25,194 nt of DNA from a virus. A program made the position numbers and the translations under genes. Shown here piece by piece: positions 6,771-22,506 of this stretch. The notes below the pieces were generated by a model that saw nothing but the letters and a program-made list of their open reading frames with translations, made no database searches and had not been told where the DNA came from. The stretch spans positions 1 through 25,194 of IMG/VR virus record IMGVR_UViG_3300005918_000119, one strand, 5' to 3'. Position 1 is the stretch's first letter. Each line of letters opens with the position of its first letter.

Positions 6771-7607
6771 ATGAAACATTTTATTTTTGTATTTACGATC
6801 GGAACCAATCTGGAATGGTCTGGGGATAAGCCCGGTGCATTGATTGATCGTGGAGTTAATCCAGATGAACGTGCTAAGATCCGGAACTGGATGGAAGCAG
6901 CACAGCCCGGTAGTTTTTTGAAGTGTATCGGTGGCATGGCTGTTTGCTCTGGGGACGATGGGAAGGAAGATGGAGTACCCAAGCAGATCCTGCTGAACAT
7001 TGAGGACGGGAACCACAAATCCACAGCAAAATCGATCGCATTTTTCAGAGGGAACCGGAAGCTGGTTTCCCCCGTGAATTCCGTGGAAATCATCTGGGAT
7101 GGCAATGGCGATTTTAAGACAGTCGTAACTGCTCAGGAAGGCTCTACAATGTCACTATCAGGCTTTGCTATTGATGGCAATGGCGATGCCTGTGAAGGTC
7201 TGGGATGGCTTCTCAATTATTTGGGGATCCGCTTCCATGAGGATACGATCCTGAAGGCTAATCCAGATGCTGCAGGATCCTTTGCATGGCTTACCCCCAG
7301 AATGACAGCAGATGCCATTGAGATCTACCCAGACAACTATTCGCTGGAAGCAGGCAGATGGCGTGGGATCGTGAATATCCAGCGTATAAGGGGAACTATT
7401 CTGATCAGAAGCTATCCAGATCCCTCTGGGCAAAGTTTCTTTGATGATCCCGGTGAACTCTGTGAGGCTATCCTGAACGATTGCAAACTGCTCGGAGTAG
7501 AGTGGAGTGCGGATCCCCGGATCCAGATTGCTCAGGCTGCAGATCCAAGAGAGCATGATGCTGTGAGAATTAATTGCTCAGAACGGATTGGATGGAATTA
7601 TGAATAA
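6771..7607 (+). CDS. Hypothetical protein, 278 residues
   Basis: I chose ATG 6771, nine bases after GGGAG. The frame also contains ATG 6756 and a TTG at 6747 that overlaps the ribosome-binding region. The protein has a beta-rich N-terminal half and many glycines, and no family I can name. Two short DGNGD motifs (residues about 113 and 138) are encoded by an exact 15-base direct repeat (7098-7112 and 7173-7187) and could be loop motifs or acidic metal-binding turns. It sits after a terminator, so a promoter is expected in 6744-6770, but I cannot point to one. Its stop overlaps the next gene. Confidence 0.55.
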   Translation: MKHFIFVFTIGTNLEWSGDKPGALIDRGVNPDERAKIRNWMEAAQPGSFLKCIGGMAVCSGDDGKEDGVPKQILLNIEDGNHKSTAKSIAFFRGNRKLVSPVNSVEIIWDGNGDFKTVVTAQEGSTMSLSGFAIDGNGDACEGLGWLLNYLGIRFHEDTILKANPDAAGSFAWLTPRMTADAIEIYPDNYSLEAGRWRGIVNIQRIRGTILIRSYPDPSGQSFFDDPGELCEAILNDCKLLGVEWSADPRIQIAQAADPREHDAVRINCSERIGWNYE

Positions 7608-8004
7608 AGGGCGGGATGTAAATAGGAGTAGAGATCTGGATAAATACCAGAAGTATCATCGCCCAGATCTGCTGAAGTCGGTGGGATCCATGACAGCTAC
7701 TGAAGTAGTGGTAGCTGAACATGAGATCCGGATGAAGGCTCCAGTGAGGCATTGCTGGTGGTGTGGTAAGGTTCTAAAGAAGAGATCCTACCGGGTGAAC
7801 TCAGAGAATGAATTGAAGCTCAGTCTGGTAGCTTATGGCTGGAGAGATTCAGGCTTCTGGTGCTCCCCCGTGTGCATTGCCAATCATGCCCCCCAGCTTG
7901 GATCCACAATGGCGAAGATCTCCAGATCCAGCATATTTACAAATGATGGATATGATCTCTCCAAAAGATCCATAAATTATAAACGTGAAGTATTCCCGGC
8001 TTAG
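7600..8004 (+). CDS. Zinc-binding hypothetical protein
   Basis: This 134-residue protein starts at ATG 7600, eight bases inside the preceding gene, with GGATGGA upstream. The frame also extends four codons back to a TTG at 7588. The key feature is a CWWCG knuckle (about residue 50) and a second CSPVC knuckle (about residue 88), separated by a helical segment. This is a treble-clef or HNH-like zinc arrangement without the full HNH catalytic signature. The C-terminus is basic. A nucleic-acid-binding role is inferred. It is the last gene before the non-coding control region and ends at a terminator. Confidence 0.55.
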   Translation: MNKGRDVNRSRDLDKYQKYHRPDLLKSVGSMTATEVVVAEHEIRMKAPVRHCWWCGKVLKKRSYRVNSENELKLSLVAYGWRDSGFWCSPVCIANHAPQLGSTMAKISRSSIFTNDGYDLSKRSINYKREVFPA

Positions 8005-8027
8005 TTCCCCGGGAAGTTAATCCCCCT

Positions 8028-8062
8028 AAGCCCTTCAGGATTTTTCTGAGGGGCTTTTTTTT
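8028..8062 (+). terminator. Rho-independent terminator
   Basis: AAGCCCTTCAG (8028-8038) pairs with CTGAGGGGCTT (8046-8056; one G-U pair) and is followed by a run of T to 8062. It closes the left-hand gene block. Confidence 0.85.
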
Positions 8063-8122
8063 ATCCCCCTGTTACATCCCCCCAAGCTGCATTCCTGCAG
8101 CACTTTCCCCAACATGCTATGC

Positions 8123-13175: not shown

Positions 13176-14225
13176 ATGTCACAAAACCAAGTCTATCAGC
13201 TTAACCATGCCATGCCGATCTTTGGTAAGATCCGGTTCGGTAGAATTCTATTGCAGATTATCTCACTGATAAATGCGTTTAGAAGTTATTTCGTAGGAGA
13301 AACCAAACTGCTTTCAGGTGTCCCCGGGATGCAGGAAGGAACTGGCACTACAACTAAATCCCGCATGAATGCAGCTATTCGCTTCATGATTGGCGGGCAA
13401 CACTATTATGCCCCTGCTGCAGAATCAGTATTGGCAAGTGCTGCAAACGATATCACAGCAACCAAGTTCGGAGCGTGGAGATTCCAGATTAGTAAACTGG
13501 GTGTAATCACCAATGATGCTGCAGATGAGACTGGTGATATGGCTTATGAATCAGCAGAACTCGCTTTGCTGGCTCTATGCAATCAGCCACTGACTGCAAA
13601 CACTCTGGTAATCGGATATCTGGTTATTGAAGCTGCTGCTGGTGGTTTCACGATCGGTACTAATTTACCTGTTACATCTGATGCACAGGTAACAGCAGCC
13701 ACGTACTACGATGAACTGGGTGATTCTGGGATCATAGATCCAGCTACCATTGCTGTGAGTGCTACCCCGGAAGAGTTCGCCATCGGTGCATCCACAGTGA
13801 AGGTAAACGGATTAGAGTTAGCAGAAGTCGCTGCTGATGCCTCGTTCCCTTTTGCTCTGGCTGATACTGTCACTACTCTGAAATTTGGTGGATGGCTGAT
13901 CGTAACAAATCTGGCTGGAACTGCCCATTTGATTATCAGTGCTGATGGAGATCCAACAGCATCACTGCAGGCTTATGCAGACTTCGCTGCCACTAAAACC
14001 GCTCTGGATGCTCTTGAAGCAGCTATGTGCGGTCGCTTTGTAGTTCTGGGAAGATTCTATCTCCAGAATGGTGCGAAAGCTCCGTGGACTGCCAAAACAG
14101 ATGATATCGTGGATGGAAGTGATATCGTGGATGGCACATTCCGCAAAAATGCAGCTTACACCGGGATCCAGCGATTAAGTGCTGAAACCTCAGTAGATAC
14201 AATCAGCGGAAGCGTATCCAGCTAA
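13176..14225 (+). CDS. Structural protein of unknown role
   Basis: This 349-residue protein is rich in Ala, Thr and Gly, with beta-strand repeats (for example LVIGYLVIEAAAGGFTIGTN, TTLKFGGWLIVTNLAG) and a tandem DIVDGSDIVDG near the C-terminus. It looks like an extracellular virion component such as a head decoration, whisker or neck fibre. No family is recognised. It has a strong ribosome-binding site (AAAAGGAGACG) and sits between the connector and an HK97-gp10-like gene, which suggests a head or neck location. Confidence 0.5.
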   Translation: MSQNQVYQLNHAMPIFGKIRFGRILLQIISLINAFRSYFVGETKLLSGVPGMQEGTGTTTKSRMNAAIRFMIGGQHYYAPAAESVLASAANDITATKFGAWRFQISKLGVITNDAADETGDMAYESAELALLALCNQPLTANTLVIGYLVIEAAAGGFTIGTNLPVTSDAQVTAATYYDELGDSGIIDPATIAVSATPEEFAIGASTVKVNGLELAEVAADASFPFALADTVTTLKFGGWLIVTNLAGTAHLIISADGDPTASLQAYADFAATKTALDALEAAMCGRFVVLGRFYLQNGAKAPWTAKTDDIVDGSDIVDGTFRKNAAYTGIQRLSAETSVDTISGSVSS

Positions 14226-14232
14226 ACCCTGA

Positions 14233-15090
14233 ATGTTTGAGATTACTGCACAAGTCGATACCCGGCTTCTTAATGATGTAATTTATGCATTAGAGGCAAT
14301 GGGTGAAGATCGTCTCCCTTCCACGGCGAAAGCCGTTCAGGATGCAACCTATGCGATTCAGCAGGCATGGATAGATAATTCCAAAGGGGCATTTAAGCGC
14401 AAAAGTGGAGCGTATATCGCAGCCATTGAAAGCGGTGCTCAGTACCCCTACGCTGGAGATATCTTTAGGGGGGCAGTAGTAAATACTGCCCCTCATGCTT
14501 CTGCTATTGAGTATGGAACCCGGGCGTGGGATATGAAGAAAATGCTTCATACTTCCAGCAAAGCCCGGAGATCCAAAAAAGGGAAGCTCTATATGATCAT
14601 CCCCTTCAGGCATGGAACCCCGGGATCTGTTTCTCTCCCGGCTATGCCAAAGGCGGTTTATGTAGGAGCCAGAAAACTCACTACCAGCAGGCTTACTGGA
14701 ACGAAGCAAGTGGATAACCAGTTCGGAAATCCCATCACAAAAGGGAAATTCAAATTTGGAACCAGACTGAATTCTAATGTAGGCATCCGTACCAAAACCC
14801 TATCAAATCAGCAGGCAAGGCAGGCTGGAGTAAAACCGGGTTATCATTACACTTGGAAAGCAAGCCCCTATAAGGGCATGGTTAAGTTCCCCCGCCATTC
14901 ATCCGCTGGTGGATCTCAGTACATGACTTTCAGGATCATGCATGAGGATTCCAAAGGCTGGATCCATCCCGGGACACAACCGTATCACCTTGCCCAGAGA
15001 ACTGCTGCCCAAATGACTCCCCATGTAGTCAATATGATTAATTCGGGATTCAATGATGATCTTAGAATGCTAATGCCGGGGGCAAAATGA
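14233..15090 (+). CDS. HK97-gp10-like head-closure/tail-completion protein
   Basis: The 285-residue protein carries marks of the HK97 gp10-like family: an N-terminal long helix (LNDVIYALEAMGEDRLPSTAKAV), an AIEYGTRAW motif that matches the family's VExGT segment, basic loops, and a C-terminal HPGTQPYHLAQRTAAQMTPHV segment corresponding to the usual KPFLRPA region. Family members act at the head-tail joining region. It is the last gene before the DGR cassette and is separated from the preceding gene by only seven bases, with no obvious Shine-Dalgarno. It is longer than simple gp10-like proteins owing to an insertion between residues about 110 and 230. Confidence 0.6.
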   Translation: MFEITAQVDTRLLNDVIYALEAMGEDRLPSTAKAVQDATYAIQQAWIDNSKGAFKRKSGAYIAAIESGAQYPYAGDIFRGAVVNTAPHASAIEYGTRAWDMKKMLHTSSKARRSKKGKLYMIIPFRHGTPGSVSLPAMPKAVYVGARKLTTSRLTGTKQVDNQFGNPITKGKFKFGTRLNSNVGIRTKTLSNQQARQAGVKPGYHYTWKASPYKGMVKFPRHSSAGGSQYMTFRIMHEDSKGWIHPGTQPYHLAQRTAAQMTPHVVNMINSGFNDDLRMLMPGAK

Positions 15091-15123
15091 CAGATATCAG
15101 CTTAACATAGCGAGGAAATTATT

Positions 15124-15441
15124 ATGAGTTTAAGAAAAATGAAAACAGACGTACTGCTTTTGCCCGTAGCGGACACAGAATACCCCTACGAATTTCCTGA
15201 CAATGTTGAGCGTTTCAGAATTCAACTGCGAGATCCTTCCATTGCCTGGAGAATGAATGAATTAAGTGGAGTGGTTGCGTCTCCGGGTGCGAATGATAAA
15301 TATATAAACTTCCCCGCTGATAGCGTGTGGGAAGAAGACCTGCTGGACCAGCCGGAGACGAAGACCTTTTACTTCGCTTCACCAGGCACTTCTATGGTGC
15401 TTGAAATCATGTTCTGGACAGGCATCATAAGGAGATCGTAA
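15124..15441 (+). CDS. Small fibre-associated hypothetical protein
   Basis: This 105-residue beta-rich protein (for example VLLLPVADTEYPYEF, then TKTFYFASPGTSMVLEIMFWTG) sits two bases upstream of the fibre gene, with ribosome-binding site CGAGGAAATT. It uses GAC and other C-ending codons more than the head genes do. That matches the different composition of the cassette it opens. It could be a baseplate or fibre-attachment component. No family is recognised. Confidence 0.5.
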   Translation: MSLRKMKTDVLLLPVADTEYPYEFPDNVERFRIQLRDPSIAWRMNELSGVVASPGANDKYINFPADSVWEEDLLDQPETKTFYFASPGTSMVLEIMFWTGIIRRS

Positions 15442-15443
15442 TT

Positions 15444-17597
15444 ATGGGCATTGTAAAAAGACGGATAACGATGATCGAATGGGTGCCTTATGATGGAGAT
15501 GGTGCCATTGTACTCGGAGACGCTGCAGGTGTAAATAAAACACGTGTCCAAAACGTGAACCGTGTTGATGTAAAGACTGTGGACTCACTTGGTAATTTCT
15601 GGGTTGCGGGTGGGATCTCAGCCGGTGGTGTTGGAATGTTATTGACAGAGCAGGCTGTAAAGCCTGGTACTCCTGCCGCTGGATCTGGCCGAGTCTATAG
15701 CAAAACAGATGGTAAAGTATATTATGAGAATTCCGCTGGTAGAGAGTTTTTGCTGAGTGATGCTGGTGGCCTGCCAATGGCCGATTATGTAATCGACGAT
15801 GCAGGAGATACGAGTGCTGCCCTCACAGCTACAGTTGATGCATCTTCAGGTGTCTCAGTTACATGTACCTTTGCCGGTGTATCAAATACGATTGGTGATC
15901 CGACAGGAATAACAGCGAACCGCAAGTTCTGGGTTATGAACCTTGCATCAAGCACTGAGAACGCAACCTTTAACGGGATCGTAATCGAACCCGGCCACAT
16001 CCAAGGGTTCCAGTGGGATGGAGCAGCATGGGGCCAATTAGCTTCCGTTGATGCAGCCAATATTACCTATATAGCGAATGGCTATGTTACAGCGAATAAT
16101 GCTCAAGCTGCTTTTGATGGCTTTATGCCAGCAGCAGTTAAAGTTGCTGAAGCAAATAGAGCATTAGTCCCTGATGCTGATTTAGATGTAAGTAATCTTA
16201 GAAATGTGGATATAACTGGTATATTTACAATAGTAAATAATGTCTGGAAACGAGCAGTAGATTTCGCAGGTACAGGCTTTGTCAATATGTTCAAAATCAA
16301 TGCTTCTGATGAGATAGAGGTAGGAGCAAAATTAAATGGCACTTCCGCTAACTTTACTGGTAATCTTGTGGTCGCTGGCGGAATCTCAGCAGCTCCCTAT
16401 TACGGTGTTACATGGAATGAGACAACCGATGTATATGCCAGAACCGGGGCTCTATCCGGCGAGGCTATCGGAGCATCACCATCGGCATTTATGCCTATTC
16501 AGGAAGCCATGAAACGCTGCGTTCTGGATGACTCCGGAAACGTGCTCTACTTTCTCGATCCCGATGACAGTACACTAAAAGACAATGGCCAGCCAGCAAC
16601 CATCACGGATCAATCGCATGGTCAGGTCATGGTCCAGATCCCTAAATTCTGGTACAAGTACAGTTATTCAGCTCCATCGCATACCTGGGAAATCGCATCA
16701 CAACCCGTAGAGGGTTTTACGGTGCACCCTGCGTTTATCAAGGACGGCCAGGAGGTTGATTTTAGATATGTGGGTGCTTATGAGGCAAGTCTATATGATG
16801 CCACAGCTGGTGCCATGGTAGCCAGTGCCGACATTGTGACGAGCCTGTATGCCGCTGGAGATATACTCTGCTCAATATCGGGTCAGTTCCCAAAGGTGAA
16901 TGAAACACGTGCCGAGTTTAGAGGTGCGGCATCGCAACGTGGGGCCGGGTGGAGAGAGATGGACTTTGATTTGATGAGTGCTGCCCAGTTGCTCTATCTG
17001 ACGGAATATGCAGATTTTGATTCACAGACCACGATAGGCGAAGGCAGAACAGCACTCTCAGGCGGATCATGGGTCGCTGATAGCTATATCGGGCAGGCTG
17101 GGAAATCAAATTCGGACGGCAATGGATCAGCATCGGTGGGTGGCAATAGCAACACCGCTTATATGACCTATCGAGGGATCGAAAATTTCTTTGGGAATGT
17201 CTGGACCTTTATAGATGGGGTTAACATCTACAATAATGAGGCCGGGGCTTATAGTCGCTTGTTCGCATGTAACAACGAAGCCAATTTTGCAGACGATACT
17301 CAAACAAATTATGAAGAGGTCGGAGATCTGGCTCTCCTGGATGAATACCAGTCCACCTTGTCCCAGGTAATGCGAGGCTTTTTGCCTCTCACAGTCGGTG
17401 CAACCAGCTCTACAAAAATCACCGATTATTTCTATACCTACTACGACAATCTCGGTAGTGGTTGGGTCGAGGATTACCGGGTGCTCCGGTTGGGCGGTTC
17501 TGCGAGTGTCGGTTCGCCGGCGGGCGTTTTCTGCGTGTATGCGAGTAGCGCCTCTGCGTATGGCGATGTGGCCGTCGGCGGTCGGCTGTGCTTTTGA
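15444..17597 (+). CDS. DGR-diversified tail-fibre / receptor-binding protein (C-type-lectin-like)
   Basis: This 717-residue protein has an N-terminal fibre part with two copies of a VAGGISA motif (residues about 52 and 310), beta-rich spacer sequence, and a C-terminal region from about residue 320 that reads as a formylglycine-generating-enzyme/C-type-lectin fold. FFGNVWTFIDGVNIYN (within residues 570-590) and the closing RVLRLGGS...GGRLCF are characteristic. The last 38 codons are the VR of a diversity-generating retroelement, which in known DGR phages forms the ligand-binding face. AAGGAG lies nine bases before the ATG. The host receptor cannot be inferred. The presence of GGCC words marks it as compositionally foreign to this genome. 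Confidence 0.85.
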   Translation: MGIVKRRITMIEWVPYDGDGAIVLGDAAGVNKTRVQNVNRVDVKTVDSLGNFWVAGGISAGGVGMLLTEQAVKPGTPAAGSGRVYSKTDGKVYYENSAGREFLLSDAGGLPMADYVIDDAGDTSAALTATVDASSGVSVTCTFAGVSNTIGDPTGITANRKFWVMNLASSTENATFNGIVIEPGHIQGFQWDGAAWGQLASVDAANITYIANGYVTANNAQAAFDGFMPAAVKVAEANRALVPDADLDVSNLRNVDITGIFTIVNNVWKRAVDFAGTGFVNMFKINASDEIEVGAKLNGTSANFTGNLVVAGGISAAPYYGVTWNETTDVYARTGALSGEAIGASPSAFMPIQEAMKRCVLDDSGNVLYFLDPDDSTLKDNGQPATITDQSHGQVMVQIPKFWYKYSYSAPSHTWEIASQPVEGFTVHPAFIKDGQEVDFRYVGAYEASLYDATAGAMVASADIVTSLYAAGDILCSISGQFPKVNETRAEFRGAASQRGAGWREMDFDLMSAAQLLYLTEYADFDSQTTIGEGRTALSGGSWVADSYIGQAGKSNSDGNGSASVGGNSNTAYMTYRGIENFFGNVWTFIDGVNIYNNEAGAYSRLFACNNEANFADDTQTNYEEVGDLALLDEYQSTLSQVMRGFLPLTVGATSSTKITDYFYTYYDNLGSGWVEDYRVLRLGGSASVGSPAGVFCVYASSASAYGDVAVGGRLCF
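17480..17593 (+). repeat. DGR variable repeat (VR)
   Basis: This 114-bp repeat aligns without gaps to the TR at 17626-17739 and ends one base before the fibre stop codon. At 21 of the 27 TR adenine positions VR has another base (14 G, 4 T, 3 C). Only two non-adenine positions differ (17488 and 17556, both T in TR and G in VR). This adenine-specific pattern is the defining feature of a DGR target. Confidence 0.95.
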
Positions 17598-17619
17598 AAA
17601 ATTTTTACGGGTTTTTGTG

Positions 17620-17633
17620 GGAGCAGGTGCTCC
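17620..17633 (+). promoter_or_regulatory. Small hairpin at the VR-TR junction
   Basis: GGAGCA (17620-17625) pairs with TGCTCC (17628-17633). It lies 26 bases after the end of VR, and its 3' arm is the first part of TR. In the Bordetella phage DGR a hairpin just downstream of VR aids retrohoming. This one is similarly placed, but its two-base loop is tight. Confidence 0.35.
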
Positions 17634-17739
17634 TGTTGGGCAGTAATGCGAATAACGGTTCGACAGCAGGCGTTTTCTACGTGAATGCGAATAACGCCTC
17701 TTCGAATGACAATGTGAACATCGGCGGTCAGCTATGCTT
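17626..17739 (+). ncRNA. DGR template repeat (TR)
   Basis: This is the non-coding donor copy, 114 bp, 32 bp downstream of VR and 104 bp upstream of the RT gene. It is rich in AAT/AAC triplets in the VR frame (nine such codons). No combination of adenine substitutions can create a stop codon in that frame. It is expected to be transcribed and reverse-transcribed with adenine mutagenesis by the adjacent RT. The TR transcript probably extends into the spacer toward the RT, where TTGCC/GGCAA (17761-17774) can form a hairpin. Confidence 0.95.
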
Positions 17740-17843
17740 GAAGTCGTAACCACAAAGACCTTGCCTCTTGGCAAAACACAAAGCGATTCCCATATGGTGT
17801 CAGTAGGTCATTTTGATTCGAAAGCTCCGGGACATCCAAGCAC

Positions 17844-18803
17844 ATGAAGCGTCTTGGATATTTATATGAAGAAGTTTGTTCGATGGAAAATCTCATTGAA
17901 GCCCATAAGAGGGCGAGTAAAGGAAAGGGTCATTACCGGGAAGTGAAGATGATTAATGCAGCACCAGAGAAGTTTCTACACCTACTCAGAGAAATGCTGC
18001 TTAATCAGACATTCAAAAACTCGACATACACAAGAATGATCCGCAATGAATATGGGAAAGAGCGTGAGATATTGAAGCTCCCCTATTTCCCAGACAGAAT
18101 TATCCATCATGCGATCATGAATGTGATGGAGCCGATATGGATTTCTCATTTCATCAATGATACCTGGGCGTCCATCAAAGGGCGTGGAGTGCATAAGGGA
18201 GTGAGACGTATCAAGTCGGCCATGGGTGATCAGGCAGGGACACGATTTTGCTTAAAGATGGATGTCAGAAAATTTTACCCATCGGTTGACAATACGATCA
18301 TGAAGGACATTATTCGCCAAAGGGTCAAGGACGTTCGCTTACTCTGGTTGATCGACGAAATCATTGATTCATCAATCGGGCTTCCAATAGGCAATTATCT
18401 ATCACAGTTTTTGGCGAATCTATATCTCTCTGATATGGATCACTGGATTAAGGAACACCTTGGTGTCAAATATTACTTCCGCTATTGTGATGACATGGTG
18501 CTGCTTTCAAAGGGCAAGCGTGAGCTGCATAAATATCGCAGATTGATAGATCAGTATCTATCAGAACGCCTCAACCTTCAACTCAAAGGGGATTGGCAAG
18601 TATTTCCTGTTGATGCCCGGGGTATTGATTTTCTCGGATATAGGTTTTTCCACGGATACACACTCGTTCGAAAATCCATTGTAGCCAGATTTAAGCAGAA
18701 ACATAAGAGCCATAAGGTTGCTTCAATTCCGGCTTACTGGGGGTGGTTTAAGTGGGCAGACACAAACAATCTAATAAAAAGATATGGGGTTAATTATGGG
18801 TAA
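17844..18803 (+). CDS. DGR reverse transcriptase
   Basis: The 319-residue enzyme contains the RT core in order: SIKGRGVHKG (about 110-119), KMDVRKFYPSVD with catalytic Asp140, IGNYLSQ (182-188), and RYCDDMVLL with Asp216 and Asp217 (YxDD box as YCDD). The IGxxxSQ motif in place of the QG found in retron and retroviral enzymes is diagnostic for DGR RTs. The start YLYEEVCSMENLIEAHKRA matches the usual N-terminus of the family, so I keep ATG 17844 although its ribosome-binding site is weak. It is expected to copy TR RNA with adenine-specific errors. The 3' end overlaps the next gene. Confidence 0.93.
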   Translation: MKRLGYLYEEVCSMENLIEAHKRASKGKGHYREVKMINAAPEKFLHLLREMLLNQTFKNSTYTRMIRNEYGKEREILKLPYFPDRIIHHAIMNVMEPIWISHFINDTWASIKGRGVHKGVRRIKSAMGDQAGTRFCLKMDVRKFYPSVDNTIMKDIIRQRVKDVRLLWLIDEIIDSSIGLPIGNYLSQFLANLYLSDMDHWIKEHLGVKYYFRYCDDMVLLSKGKRELHKYRRLIDQYLSERLNLQLKGDWQVFPVDARGIDFLGYRFFHGYTLVRKSIVARFKQKHKSHKVASIPAYWGWFKWADTNNLIKRYGVNYG

Positions 18804-19116
18804 GGGAACAAGCATACAGCGGCCAGATCTAACCGTTTTTCGTAATCGGCGTCTGCAAGTGAGGTTCAATATCACGGATGCGACGATGGACGATGGCATT
18901 GGCGGGACCATGGCACAATTCAAATACGATTATATTGAGGTCTCAACTCCTGTAGATAGAAAAAAGATCATTGTGGCTTTAATTAGATCTATTTTTGATG
19001 TCGATGATGAGTTTGCGCTCATGCATCTCGACCCGCAGGATCCCGCCTACATCGAATATCGGGCTCATGTTGACAAATGCAAATCGATTGCTGACGAGGT
19101 GCTGAGTGTATTGTGA
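18796..19116 (+). CDS. Hypothetical protein downstream of RT
   Basis: This 106-residue protein overlaps the RT stop codon. I prefer ATG 18796 (GGGGT five bases upstream) to ATG 18784, which lies further inside the RT gene. It has a basic N-terminus (MGKGTSIQRPDLTVFRNRRLQVRF) and an acidic helical C-terminal half (IIVALIRSIFDVDDEFALMHL, then KCKSIADEVLSVL). No family is named. The position after a fibre/DGR unit suggests a tail- or DGR-associated role. It is not recognisably an Avd protein. Its stop overlaps the GTG start of the following gene. Confidence 0.55.
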   Translation: MGKGTSIQRPDLTVFRNRRLQVRFNITDATMDDGIGGTMAQFKYDYIEVSTPVDRKKIIVALIRSIFDVDDEFALMHLDPQDPAYIEYRAHVDKCKSIADEVLSVL

Positions 19117-19406
19117 AAAAGTTCTCAGAGTTCTCCACGGAGGATCAACCATTAGACGGCAGGAAAAGTCGTATGGACGATATACTGAATCAGAAAATAA
19201 TTGTCACAGGCTTCAGTATAAAAACGAGCAAATACAGTAAGAATGTAACCGGAAAGTATCTGACATTGCAATTTGAGATGAACAACGAGACCCAAATAAT
19301 TTTTACAGGATCGGATGTATTAATCGGTCAAATGGAGCGATATGGCGAGGAAATCCCATTTGCGGCAGTCATTAAAAAAATCAATCGGTATTATACCCTA
19401 ACGTAA
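19113..19406 (+). CDS. Small OB-fold-like protein, possible nucleic-acid binder
   Basis: This 97-residue protein starts at GTG 19113, overlapping the preceding stop (GTGA). After a helical N-terminus the pattern is alternating beta strands: KIIVTGFSIKTSKYSK, KYLTLQFEMNNETQIIFTG, then a helix (SDVLIGQMERYG) and closing strands (AAVIKKINRYYTL). Similar small phage proteins look like OB-fold single-strand DNA binders. I infer that fold from the pattern and have no motif proof. As it is coupled to the RT operon, it is the best candidate in the cassette for a nucleic-acid-binding helper. Confidence 0.5.
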   Translation: MKKFSEFSTEDQPLDGRKSRMDDILNQKIIVTGFSIKTSKYSKNVTGKYLTLQFEMNNETQIIFTGSDVLIGQMERYGEEIPFAAVIKKINRYYTLT

Positions 19407-19442
19407 AATGACTATGCAAACCAAAGCTAAAGGAAGAATCTA

Positions 19443-19850
19443 ATGATCTTTCCAGGATACAAACCAGAGTTTGAATTTAACAACGATCTGGACCATATTA
19501 ACTTTTCAGGTCACAACAAGATCCATTTCTGGGGAGCAGCAGCTATGGCCTATGTAAGCTCATTCTGGACCGTACCAGCCTTTGGATTGCTTGTTGGACT
19601 AACTGCATCATTCGCTATTGCATACGGCTTCTGGATAGCATGGGAGCTCGGTGACGGTTGGAAGCCTTCATGGGATGATCCGCGCTACAAACATTATAAC
19701 ACTGACTCAGGATTGCGGGCGTGGATCATAGCCAATGGGTTGCTGTCAGATAAATTTTCATTGCAAGATGCGCTGATCCACGACTTGGGCGGGTCCATAC
19801 TGGGCATTGCCGTTGCGTTTATTACGCAAGGCATATTGATACTAAGGTAA
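19443..19850 (+). CDS. Small membrane protein
   Basis: The 135-residue protein has three hydrophobic segments: residues about 31-48, 47-66 and 112-133. Between the second and the third lies a polar loop (GDGWKPSWDDPRYKHY). Features such as HFWGAAAMAY, WELGDG and LIHDLGGSILG recall the YfiM/DUF2279 type, in which histidines and acidic residues lie in the membrane region. This is a resemblance only. AAAGGAAG precedes the ATG. It could be a holin-like or envelope-modifying protein of the phage. Confidence 0.5.
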   Translation: MIFPGYKPEFEFNNDLDHINFSGHNKIHFWGAAAMAYVSSFWTVPAFGLLVGLTASFAIAYGFWIAWELGDGWKPSWDDPRYKHYNTDSGLRAWIIANGLLSDKFSLQDALIHDLGGSILGIAVAFITQGILILR

Positions 19851-19866
19851 AGGTAAGGGGCAAAAA

Positions 19867-20259
19867 ATGAAACTGATTGAATTTAAGATAATTGATATTG
19901 CAAATGCGGTAGAGGGTCAATTAGAGAGTATCGATTTTCGCAAAATTATAAAAACATGGCTTCGTCAGGATGAGCTTGGATGGGGCAAAACCCATCCCCT
20001 GAGTACACCAGATGATTTCAGGCTGGCAATCAAGATAGATGAATGCCTGGAAGATAAAGCCAGTTCTCAGATTGTGGATGATGAAGTTGCAAATTACCTG
20101 AGCGATGTGGCTGCTTTTACGAGAAATTCTACTTCAATACCATTGGGACATAAAAAGGCAATGTTTGAATTCAAAGAGTATTGGGGAAAGGTCAAAAGCG
20201 AGAAATCGCAGTCATATAAAAAGCTGGGATCACAACTGAAAAAGATATTAGCAGGATAA
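19867..20259 (+). CDS. Hypothetical protein, 130 residues
   Basis: This helical protein has a basic C-terminus (KSQSYKKLGSQLKKILAG) and no recognised domain. The centre (CLEDKASSQIVDDEVANYL) is acidic. It has a good ribosome-binding site (AAGGGGCAAAAA), follows the membrane protein within 17 bases, and is the last gene before composition returns to GATC-dense sequence. Its length is close to that of DGR Avd proteins (about 130), but I see no specific Avd pattern. Confidence 0.5.
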   Translation: MKLIEFKIIDIANAVEGQLESIDFRKIIKTWLRQDELGWGKTHPLSTPDDFRLAIKIDECLEDKASSQIVDDEVANYLSDVAAFTRNSTSIPLGHKKAMFEFKEYWGKVKSEKSQSYKKLGSQLKKILAG

Positions 20260-20287: not shown

Positions 20288-21379
20288 GTGACAAATATCA
20301 GATTAGATCATGAGATCCAAAAGCTGATAGATGATATGAGCACAAAGGTCTATTACCGGAAGGGTAGGCTTTGTTCATGTGTACAAGCAGAGCATGGAGC
20401 TCCAGATCCCCAGCATGATTGCATCGATGGATTCAGATATGATGCTCCGATCGAATATGAAGTGCTCAGGACATCTGTAGATATGCGAAGGCAATCTGAG
20501 AAAGCCCAGCGGATCCTGCAGGGCGGATCCACAATTACGATCCCCCGGAAGCGGCTTAATCACCATGCAGTAATTACCGGGAATGTAGATCTCTCTGGTG
20601 GGATAGATCTCACTTCAGTATTTAACATTAAAATTATTGTGGACAGCGGATCTGAAACTACGATCAATGCAGCTTTAAAGGCTGCAGATAAGTCTGATGT
20701 ATCACTCCCTGAGATTGTTCATTCAATCAATAGCGCAGGATTGGGGAATATAGCCTATGAGAGCGGATCCACGGGCGATCCTAATGAAAGTGGATACCTA
20801 ACCCTCAGATCCCTCAAAGCGGGCTCAGATTCCAATTTAACGCTATTGATTCCCTCTTCCGGGGATGCAGTGAGTGCTCTTCTGGGAGTGGATCCAAATT
20901 TTTATCCCCATCGATACATCCCCAGCACTACAGTTATGCAGTATATCCTACTCTATGATGAGATCTCAATGGGTGATATCTTCACTTTAAACCTGAGAAC
21001 TCGCAGGGATTCTGTAATGATGAAAAGGGGATTTCAGGATAGCATTAAGGCTTTCGATATTAAGCGGATCCTAAGTGTCTCCGCTGATGATCAGATCTAT
21101 CATGAGAATATTGATTTCACGTTCGCTGGAGATGCCATTACGTGGTTAGCTGGGAAGGGCATGAGTAATGGGGTAGCATACGCTACTGAAATGCTTGTGA
21201 ACCCAAATTACATTGTTTATGAAGAGCAGGCTTCAGATCGTGGATCTGATATTGAGCTTGTAGCAAAAAAAATAGTTTTAAAACTCCGGAACTATACTGA
21301 ATCAGGAAGAGCGATGGATCTACCGATCGATCGTAAATCAGCCTTCAGTAATGCATTTAGTTCAGGGTTTCAATTATAA
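20288..21379 (+). CDS. Tail/neck structural protein with N-terminal zinc-binding segment
   Basis: This 363-residue protein starts at GTG 20288 with GGGGA upstream. Near the N-terminus is a cysteine/histidine cluster (CSCVQAEHGAPDPQHDC) that matches the CxC...DPxCxxC zinc-loop pattern found in some phage head-tail joining proteins. Residues about 100-210 form a beta-rich domain (KIIVDSGSETTINAAL, then YLTLRSLKAGSDSNLTLLI). The C-terminal part is mixed alpha/beta. It sits between the DGR cassette and fibre- and tail-completion genes, so it is probably a neck or baseplate-proximal protein. The zinc cluster, not the whole family, is what I can see. Confidence 0.55.
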   Translation: MTNIRLDHEIQKLIDDMSTKVYYRKGRLCSCVQAEHGAPDPQHDCIDGFRYDAPIEYEVLRTSVDMRRQSEKAQRILQGGSTITIPRKRLNHHAVITGNVDLSGGIDLTSVFNIKIIVDSGSETTINAALKAADKSDVSLPEIVHSINSAGLGNIAYESGSTGDPNESGYLTLRSLKAGSDSNLTLLIPSSGDAVSALLGVDPNFYPHRYIPSTTVMQYILLYDEISMGDIFTLNLRTRRDSVMMKRGFQDSIKAFDIKRILSVSADDQIYHENIDFTFAGDAITWLAGKGMSNGVAYATEMLVNPNYIVYEEQASDRGSDIELVAKKIVLKLRNYTESGRAMDLPIDRKSAFSNAFSSGFQL

Positions 21380-21921: not shown

Positions 21922-22506
21922 ATGAGCCCAAAGAATTCATCCCGTGCCCCGTCCGATCCCCCCAGCAGTATTGCTGGTGGGGATACGGATGAAACAGAAA
22001 AGGACGATACAAAAATGCCTCATGCAAAAGGATCGATTCTTATAGTTGACGATGATAGATCCCAGAGGGCTTATCTCCGTGGATTGATTGAGTATAGCTT
22101 CCCAGAGGTATATGTGGGTGAGGCTGGCAACTTTGAATCAGCAATGAAGATGGCTGGTGAACATGATTTTGATTTATTTGTTATGGATGTGCTGTTAGAT
22201 GGGAATACAGATGGAGTTCAGGCTGCAAAGGCACTGAATGCACTGAATGGGTATCATGTAACTCCAGTGATATTTATTACTGCAGCAGACGGGATGAGGG
22301 CGAAACTGAAGAGTGAATTTGATAATTTCGTATGTTACGATAAACCACTTAAACCCCATGTATTTAATCGCCGTGTAGGACGATGCTTGGAGCTAATGGA
22401 AAGCCTTAATCAGATAAGGCAAAATGTGATAAGTCTGAATATTCTTGAAACTGATATGATAGCTCAAAATGAAATGCTTGGGGGAATACATGCCATCCGA
22501 ACGTGA
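21922..22506 (+). CDS. CheY-like response-regulator receiver protein
   Basis: Residues about 37-160 form a complete receiver domain with all key positions: acidic pair Asp43-Asp44 (in SILIVDDDRSQ), phosphoacceptor Asp89 (VMDVLLDG), Thr120 (FITAADG) and Lys141 (YDKPL). It should therefore be phosphorylatable. There is no DNA-binding output domain, only a helical C-terminus of about 35 residues. The first 31 residues are a polar linker, so ATG 22015 (AAAGGACGATACAAAA upstream) is an alternative start. A near-palindromic hairpin lies around 21955-21985 at the N-terminal coding part. Its place inside a tail gene cluster is unusual. The cognate kinase is not in this window. Confidence 0.8.
   Translation: MSPKNSSRAPSDPPSSIAGGDTDETEKDDTKMPHAKGSILIVDDDRSQRAYLRGLIEYSFPEVYVGEAGNFESAMKMAGEHDFDLFVMDVLLDGNTDGVQAAKALNALNGYHVTPVIFITAADGMRAKLKSEFDNFVCYDKPLKPHVFNRRVGRCLELMESLNQIRQNVISLNILETDMIAQNEMLGGIHAIRT

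Follow-up and report, generated by a model that had tools for sequence, protein, structure and literature searches.

Positions 1 to 25,194 of the IMG/VR virus record IMGVR_UViG_3300005918_000119 make up the stretch of 25,194 bases analysed here (the window). Between two of its virion genes lies a block of 5136 bases (15124-20259) holding a tail-fibre gene, a diversity-generating retroelement (DGR) and several small genes; the 20058 bases outside it are called the backbone below. An earlier note, drawn from the letters alone, had explained this block by recent import of the fibre, the reverse transcriptase (RT) and four downstream genes into a genome that avoids the word GGCC. The contigs with which we compared the window (named in an L and a G series) are all metagenomic, and phage types among them were counted by differing neighbour genes, not from complete genomes. 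The features of the locus are as follows (aa, amino acids; VR and TR, the variable and template repeats of the DGR; percentages are identities).

14233..15090, + strand: backbone gene left of the slot, neck or tail-completion-like protein of 285 aa (phrog_16819, 3.4e-36; phrog_5, tail completion or Neck1, 3.1e-5; 46% to its homologue in L084)
15087..15110, + strand: probable fossil 5' end of the right-hand gene, ATGACAGATATCAGCTTAACATAG, reading MTDISLT* from ATG to TAG
15124..20259, + strand: foreign-word block between the neck gene and the 363-aa virion gene, with the words confined to it; absent in L084
15124..15441, + strand: orf105, small protein just 5' of the fibre
15444..17597, + strand: DGR target fibre, 717 aa (phrog_5302 tail protein, 7.9e-90 over 282-717)
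16371..16480, + strand: left anchor, start of the shared tip (GGISxAPYYGVxW...), 77-90% to L003
16480..19040, + strand: core, letter-identical except for the VR in L003, L005 and L004
17480..17593, + strand: VR, containing the GGCC at 17570
17626..17739, + strand: TR, 114 bp, identical in the window and L002-L006
17757..17847, + strand: RT-17 RNA (Rfam RF03020) between the TR and the RT start (42.2 bits; gathering threshold 40.4)
17844..18803, + strand: DGR-type RT, 319 aa (RVT_1, 8e-15; phrog_1423, 6.6e-116)
18784..19116, + strand: orf110, conserved in the module (tblastn 43-95% in L003, L005, L007-L009, L062 and L100)
19113..19406, + strand: orf97, predicted OB-fold, right anchor, 60-87% to L003
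19443..19850, + strand: orf135, membrane-protein-like (35% homologue right of the module in L003/L005, tblastn)
19867..20259, + strand: orf130, holding the last CCWGG (20046)
20288..21379, + strand: backbone gene right of the slot, 363-aa virion structural protein, vsp363 (phrog_1004, 1.6e-6)

The RT carries GNYLSQ, a form of the GxxxSQ motif that serves as a criterion for DGR reverse transcriptases in one account of these elements (PMC3521204), together with YCDD. The window's VR and TR differ at 23 positions, 21 of which are TR adenines; elsewhere the differences fall at A in 23 of 24 cases (L003), 18 of 20 (L004), 20 of 20 (L005), 18 of 19 (L006), 17 of 17 (L007), 19 of 19 (L008), 18 of 18 (L009) and 20 of 22 (L062). 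With such an RT and such a TR/VR pair the element is, to judge by its sequence, a DGR, and the VRs differ among the window and L002-L006 while the TR stays constant. The earlier note was right to place one GGCC inside the VR: at 17570 the VR reads GTGGCCGTC where the TR, which has no GGCC, reads GTGAACATC. This copy is evidently a product of A-directed DGR mutagenesis, and therefore 12 of the 13 GGCC sites in the window bear on ancestry. The fibre combines an N-terminal part of its own with a widely shared C-terminal tip, the N-termini being different in L003, L004, L007, L008, L009 and L109. Small open reading frames of 103-133 aa also precede the fibre in L003, L004 and L007; orf105 itself has no Pfam, PHROG or NCBIfam match. 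In G004 (L064 14462-14793), a contig of the same phage, most of the TR and RT gene (17644-18752) is gone and an 88% identical stretch follows; at the contig end where it stands, this gap is either an RT-less variant or an assembly join.

The block departs from its surroundings in its words. In a screen of 3,760 words for confinement to the block, exact counting places all 13 GGCC at 15687, 15768, 15779, 15993, 16032, 16587, 16746, 16943, 17240, 17570, 18218, 18821 and 19547, just as the earlier note had counted them between 15687 and 19550, with 0 in the other 20058 bases against 68.5 expected (order-1 Markov). All 10 CCWGG and all 9 GGNCC likewise fall within 15124-20259, with 0 outside against 44.8 and 63.7 expected under the same model; the block carries 32 sites of these avoided words. 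When codon usage and protein sequence were held fixed in 300 shuffles, the backbone genes were expected to contain 22.7 GGCC, 32.3 CCWGG and 12.7 GGWCC (lowest shuffles 12, 20 and 5) and contain none, a deficit beyond what codon usage and protein sequence explain. The block sits at the shuffle expectation (observed/expected: GGCC 13/12.2, CCWGG 10/9.5, GGWCC 7/4.5). CCSGG is instead enriched outside the block (86 seen, 19.2 expected), the counts of CCWGG versus CCSGG being 0 versus 86 outside and 10 versus 10 inside (Fisher 5.8e-9). Since G+C is alike inside and outside (0.452 and 0.450), the contrast concerns words, not G+C. Against both the Markov and the codon-shuffle null the break at the block is sharp, and stronger than the earlier note's two broken biases had suggested, CCWGG and GGNCC having been missed there.

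The second of those biases, GATC, fared less well. Its quoted counts are exact (31 in 15444-19850, 34 in 1-1560, 24 in 20288-21379), but the two rich stretches overstate the contrast: there are 34 GATC in 5136 bases inside (6.6 per kb) versus 265 in 20058 bases outside (13.2 per kb), the 2-kb bins at 8-10 and 14-16 kb, outside or mostly outside the block, are also poor (8.5 and 8.0 per kb), and the 18-20 kb bin within it reaches 9.5 per kb. We rejected GATC as a second edge marker, its density being uneven across the backbone and giving no clean edge, and CTAG as a discriminator, this word being absent from the entire window, block included. C-ending codons are indeed commoner in the block, modestly overall (22.2% versus 19.9% in the backbone) and more so for GAC (0.12 in the backbone, 0.30 in the block) and GTC (0.09, 0.22).

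A third-order Markov contrast, whose training set was the sister contig G003 and the G006 flanks (from an unrelated phage) and contained nothing of the window, returned 15187-20242 as its maximal segment. Each edge is crossed by contigs of the same phage, the left one by L006, L064/G004 and L065/G005 and the right one by L002 and L061/G001, with differing IMG prefixes. The earlier note had proposed looking for the block in related phages, and one distant relative (38-67% protein identity) lacks it: L084 keeps the window's gene order of protease, major head protein, 360-aa protein, neck protein and 363-aa virion protein (44, 67, 55, 46 and 38%), with the neck gene at 7254-8108 and the virion gene starting at 8105, directly after it and overlapping through GTGA. 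The window gene at 13176-14225 has no match in L084. L142 also carries a relative of the 363-aa gene, but its genes are ordered differently and say nothing about the slot. In the window, the short frame ATGACAGATATCAGCTTAACATAG, which reads MTDISLT and then stops, still overlaps the neck stop (ATGA), while the intact virion gene 5.2 kb downstream starts GTGACAAATATCAGATTAGATC, MTNIRLD. The stretches at 15088 and 20289 match at 15 of 17 bases, a level reached by 4 of 2,962 random equal-sized pairs. The 24 bp at 15087-15110 are thus probably the first codons of the old virion gene, left behind at the left edge; we read the 15/17-bp similarity as this fossil gene start and not as a transposon repeat. 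No integrase or transposase was recognised in Pfam, PHROGs and NCBIfam scans.

Much of the block recurs in phages of other kinds. Compared with L003, the window is unrelated up to about 16370, is 77-90% identical to 16470 and then, over a core of 2.56 kb (16480-19040) that holds the fibre tip, VR, TR, RT and orf110, has 0 mismatches in 2,447 bases (VR excluded) against each of L003, L005 and L004. Past the core, identity to L003 is 83-87% from 19040 to about 19130 and 60-67% over the rest of orf97, after which the two are unrelated. L005 starts at the core's left edge and agrees with the L003 pattern. L004, which differs in its major head protein and fibre N-terminus and carries glycosyltransferase-like genes, shares 16172-19058 at 99.3%. 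A more distant version is found in L109 (35 mismatches in the 441 bases of the covered part), and others in L007, L008/G006 and L009, the fibre N-terminus and the neighbours being particular to each; the modules in L007, L008, L009 and L109 are non-identical (71-92%). Three different families of major head protein stand beside the module in L004, L109 and L008. The tip-plus-DGR unit is, on these alignments, common to several phage types. The block is closer to unrelated genomes than to a sister phage (core 100% to L003/L005/L004, 69% module identity to G002), and identical DNA amid unrelated genes shows, so far as the contigs are correctly assembled, a horizontal origin. In a phage database the sole DNA matches were short ones to gut-phage RT genes.

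An assembly chimera, in which the block or its core had been joined to a genome where it does not belong, would mimic such sharing; contig ends do bunch at the core edges (L005, L004, G005, G001), and G004 makes an odd jump across TR and RT at its end. We regard this explanation as very improbable, the crossing of each block edge by contigs of differing IMG prefixes and the sharing of modules that are not identical repeats both speaking against it.

Avoidance of GGCC is not strong in the flanks of the module in these other phages (seen/expected: L003/L005 22/15.4, L008/G006 64/72.1, L009 5/8.0, L109 17/15.7); the short flank of L004 has 4 against 9.1. The earlier note had held that close relatives bearing the same cassette in DNA of uniform composition would tell against import, and in L003/L005 the core does lie beside GGCC-normal DNA; read literally this goes against import, but L003/L005 is an unrelated phage and not a close relative. 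Some flanks show an opposite bias, CCWGG being enriched in L003/L005 (44/18.3), L129 (46/18.0) and G006 (135/52.3), with no CCSGG in L003/L005 (0/0.8) and L129 (0/1.1). An L003-type phage was considered as direct donor and set aside, its flank counts standing against 5/4.5 CCWGG and 8/4.0 CCSGG in the window core.

The sister phages allow the break to be placed in time. G002 and G003 are 99.98% identical to each other over their shared parts and 81% to the window backbone, with vsp363 at 83%. The G002 module, at about 70% DNA identity and 73% for the RT, lies on the same side of the virion gene, with another small gene after it. The avoided-word sites of G002 number 21 (6 GGCC, 7 CCWGG, 8 GGNCC), and 20 of them fall in the slot, as do 4 of 5 in G003; in G001, the window phage's other contig, all 6 lie in the part belonging to the block, with 0 in the first 23,198 bases. 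We built 300 mosaics by drawing site by site from the two sister backbones over 20,183 aligned columns. On average these contain 6.0 GGCC, 8.4 CCWGG, 7.6 GGNCC and 9.8 CTAG, against 0 or 1 in the parents; control words are in or near the mosaic range (GATC, with 262 and 266 in the parents, lies at its top, 265), and mosaics of the module show no comparable deficit. Because the mosaics exceed the parents on average, avoidance evidently continued after the sister split, while both slots hold unpurged words. Late filling or refilling of each slot is the simplest explanation, and the slot has probably been refilled repeatedly. In the RT tree the sister's RT falls outside the window plus L007-L009 (96/92), and by identity to the window RT it (73%) ranks below those of L003, L004, L005, L007, L008 and L009 (75-100%), with that of L100, an unrelated phage, lower still (70%).

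The presence of the same kind of module in the same slot of G002 would also fit an old, vertically inherited block exempted from avoidance by codon or protein constraint. This is very improbable: the block's words stand at the codon-shuffle expectation, which makes such a constraint superfluous, the slot of L084 is empty, the sister's RT is less window-like than those of most unrelated phages compared, and the identical DNA in unrelated contigs contradicts it unless those contigs are chimeric.

As to why the words are avoided, restriction by hosts is the likely cause. Discrimination between CCWGG and CCSGG matches EcoRII-type recognition. L084 (seen/expected: CCWGG 1/32, GGNCC 0/60, GGCC 30/63) suggests, by its word-by-word turnover, that the avoided set changes over time, as it would with changing sets of restriction-modification (R-M) systems. 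A mutational or lexical bias of the lineage, under which the block would be foreign regardless, is unlikely. The non-palindromic words GACC, CGAG and CAAC are depleted in the backbone too, and neither a matching host nor a restriction enzyme or R-M system was found, which favours such a bias; a mutation bias would hardly tell W from S in CCWGG and CCSGG, and L084 avoids CCWGG and GGNCC but retains 30 GGCC. That the phage tolerates 32 sites now points to one of three things: a change of host, modification of its DNA, or an import too recent to have had a cost. That it now modifies its DNA, or switched host upon taking up the cassette, leaving the sites harmless, is compatible with import and, though on the unlikely side, deserves some weight, as a new receptor cassette could alter the host. 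Against it, no methyltransferase was recognised among the scanned proteins (early genes lie outside the window), and the mosaics indicate that avoidance still acted after the sister split. Scanning bacterial genomes with the head protein brought up two short contigs of metagenome-assembled genomes (Ca. Neomarinimicrobiota UBA9312 and SpSt-1156; 52-54%), matches too weak to point to a host, and nine contig pieces held no tRNA genes.

Taken together, we read the block as an imported receptor-binding cassette between two virion genes of a word-purged phage lineage, with a probability of roughly 0.84. The word break, the empty slot of L084 and the identical DNA in unrelated contigs support the recent import of fibre, RT and downstream genes that the earlier note proposed. 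Import as a single event is not shown, and we did not adopt it: core edges lie inside the block, and the G002 slot holds a different, equally unadapted version, so that the block is probably layered. Several observations weigh against our reading. The L003/L005 flanks have 0 CCSGG versus 8 in the core, and the reading names neither donor nor direction. Contig ends gather at the core edges as they do around a repeat that several genomes have in common, a pattern that also allows for assembler errors, and the identical cores could in part reflect an assembler switching through such a repeat. Strong restriction in the present host would sit uneasily with some 30 unadapted sites. Single mosaics can reach 0 GGCC (the minimum of the 300), a test of the alternative tree with a sister clade gave no rejection (p-AU 0.067), and L084 is distant enough for loss of the block there to be conceivable.

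On this reading the backbone was purged of GGCC, CCWGG and GGNCC, most likely through restriction in hosts, and phages co-infecting a cell would exchange the fibre tip along with its DGR, recombining where the sequence is conserved at either end. A tip already tuned, and open to retuning, would travel as one unit, to be diversified by the DGR after arrival in the new genome, and the slot would be refilled faster than unadapted words are purged, thereby staying compositionally foreign. We go further only tentatively, at somewhat less than even odds, in suggesting that fibre tip and DGR form a community-wide plug-in, with the GGISxAPYYGVxW linker and the OB-fold gene orf97 as recombination anchors, which sweeps through phages with unrelated capsids and is re-imported faster than restriction cleans it.

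No Avd-type accessory was recognised in orf110 or orf97 by Pfam, PHROGs or NCBIfam. The AlphaFold model of orf97 (pLDDT 87) has the strand order b-b-b-a-b-b, and its best structural matches include OB folds such as a bacterial SSB (Z 6.6, below the stand-out level of Z 8); Foldseek gave no match at E <= 0.001, and sequence comparison with solved structures nothing convincing. It is possible, going by this model, that orf97 is a single-strand-binding DGR accessory. By profile, orf97 occurs at 30 of 79 RT loci with at least 800 bases downstream, some of these loci having been gathered with orf97 as query. Membrane proteins resembling orf135 follow the module in three phage types (window 19443-19850, L003:4356-4742, L009:4987-5278) with a pattern WE.GDG..P.W / GFS..D seen by eye; tblastn backs the window/L003 pair. 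In the backbone, the window encodes a response-regulator receiver protein (21922-22506; PF00072, 1.8e-14), and the unrelated L003/L005 phage has a protein of similar appearance by eye (L003:4759-5211), again to that side of its cassette. Beyond the window's end, L072 488-3793 encodes in purged backbone a 1101-aa protein rich in SADxKAxSA-type repeats, perhaps another tail fibre, whose gene has no GGCC, CCWGG or GGNCC.

DGR transfer and mosaic tail fibres are already known. The DGR of Bordetella phage BPP-1 was described together with its transfer into a kappa-type prophage of Vibrio cholerae HE-09, where a 2.9-kb unit comprising the RT, an accessory gene, both repeats (TR and VR) and a portion of the target gene took the place of phage DNA and became joined to the fibre gene already there (PMC3521204). 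The window's 2.56-kb core has the same kinds of part; here, in contrast to that account, contigs of three phage types carry an identical core and several others related ones, one relative has nothing in the slot, the block breaks the genome's word usage, and orf110/orf97 take the place of Atd. A global microbiome survey reports frequent inter-genome transfer of DGRs and C-terminal C-Lec target regions fused to diverse domains (PMC8144416); where its account infers transfer from trees and modular targets, the present locus offers sharp DNA breakpoints and a probable fossil edge. The unrelated Alteromonas phages A5 and V22 share a host-recognition module (PMC10579305), likewise a fibre module common to distantly related phages, but theirs includes a chaperone, and the term DGR has a count of 0 in the text of that report consulted. 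Prokaryotic viruses are described as avoiding restriction sites (PMC6286503), and here too R-M-type words are lost from virus genomes; the difference is that a single block has stayed clear of this loss, by which it can be dated against the remaining genome. Our literature search turned up no DGR block dated by restriction-word avoidance and no OB-fold DGR accessory, which is no proof of absence. Word avoidance can in this way serve as a clock: the contrast of purged backbone and unpurged slot in two sister phages gives the relative age of a host-recognition module. It also raises the question of how a phage admits some 30 sites of a kind kept out of the rest of its genome; the answer would help to tell whether an exchange of receptor goes along with a change of host.

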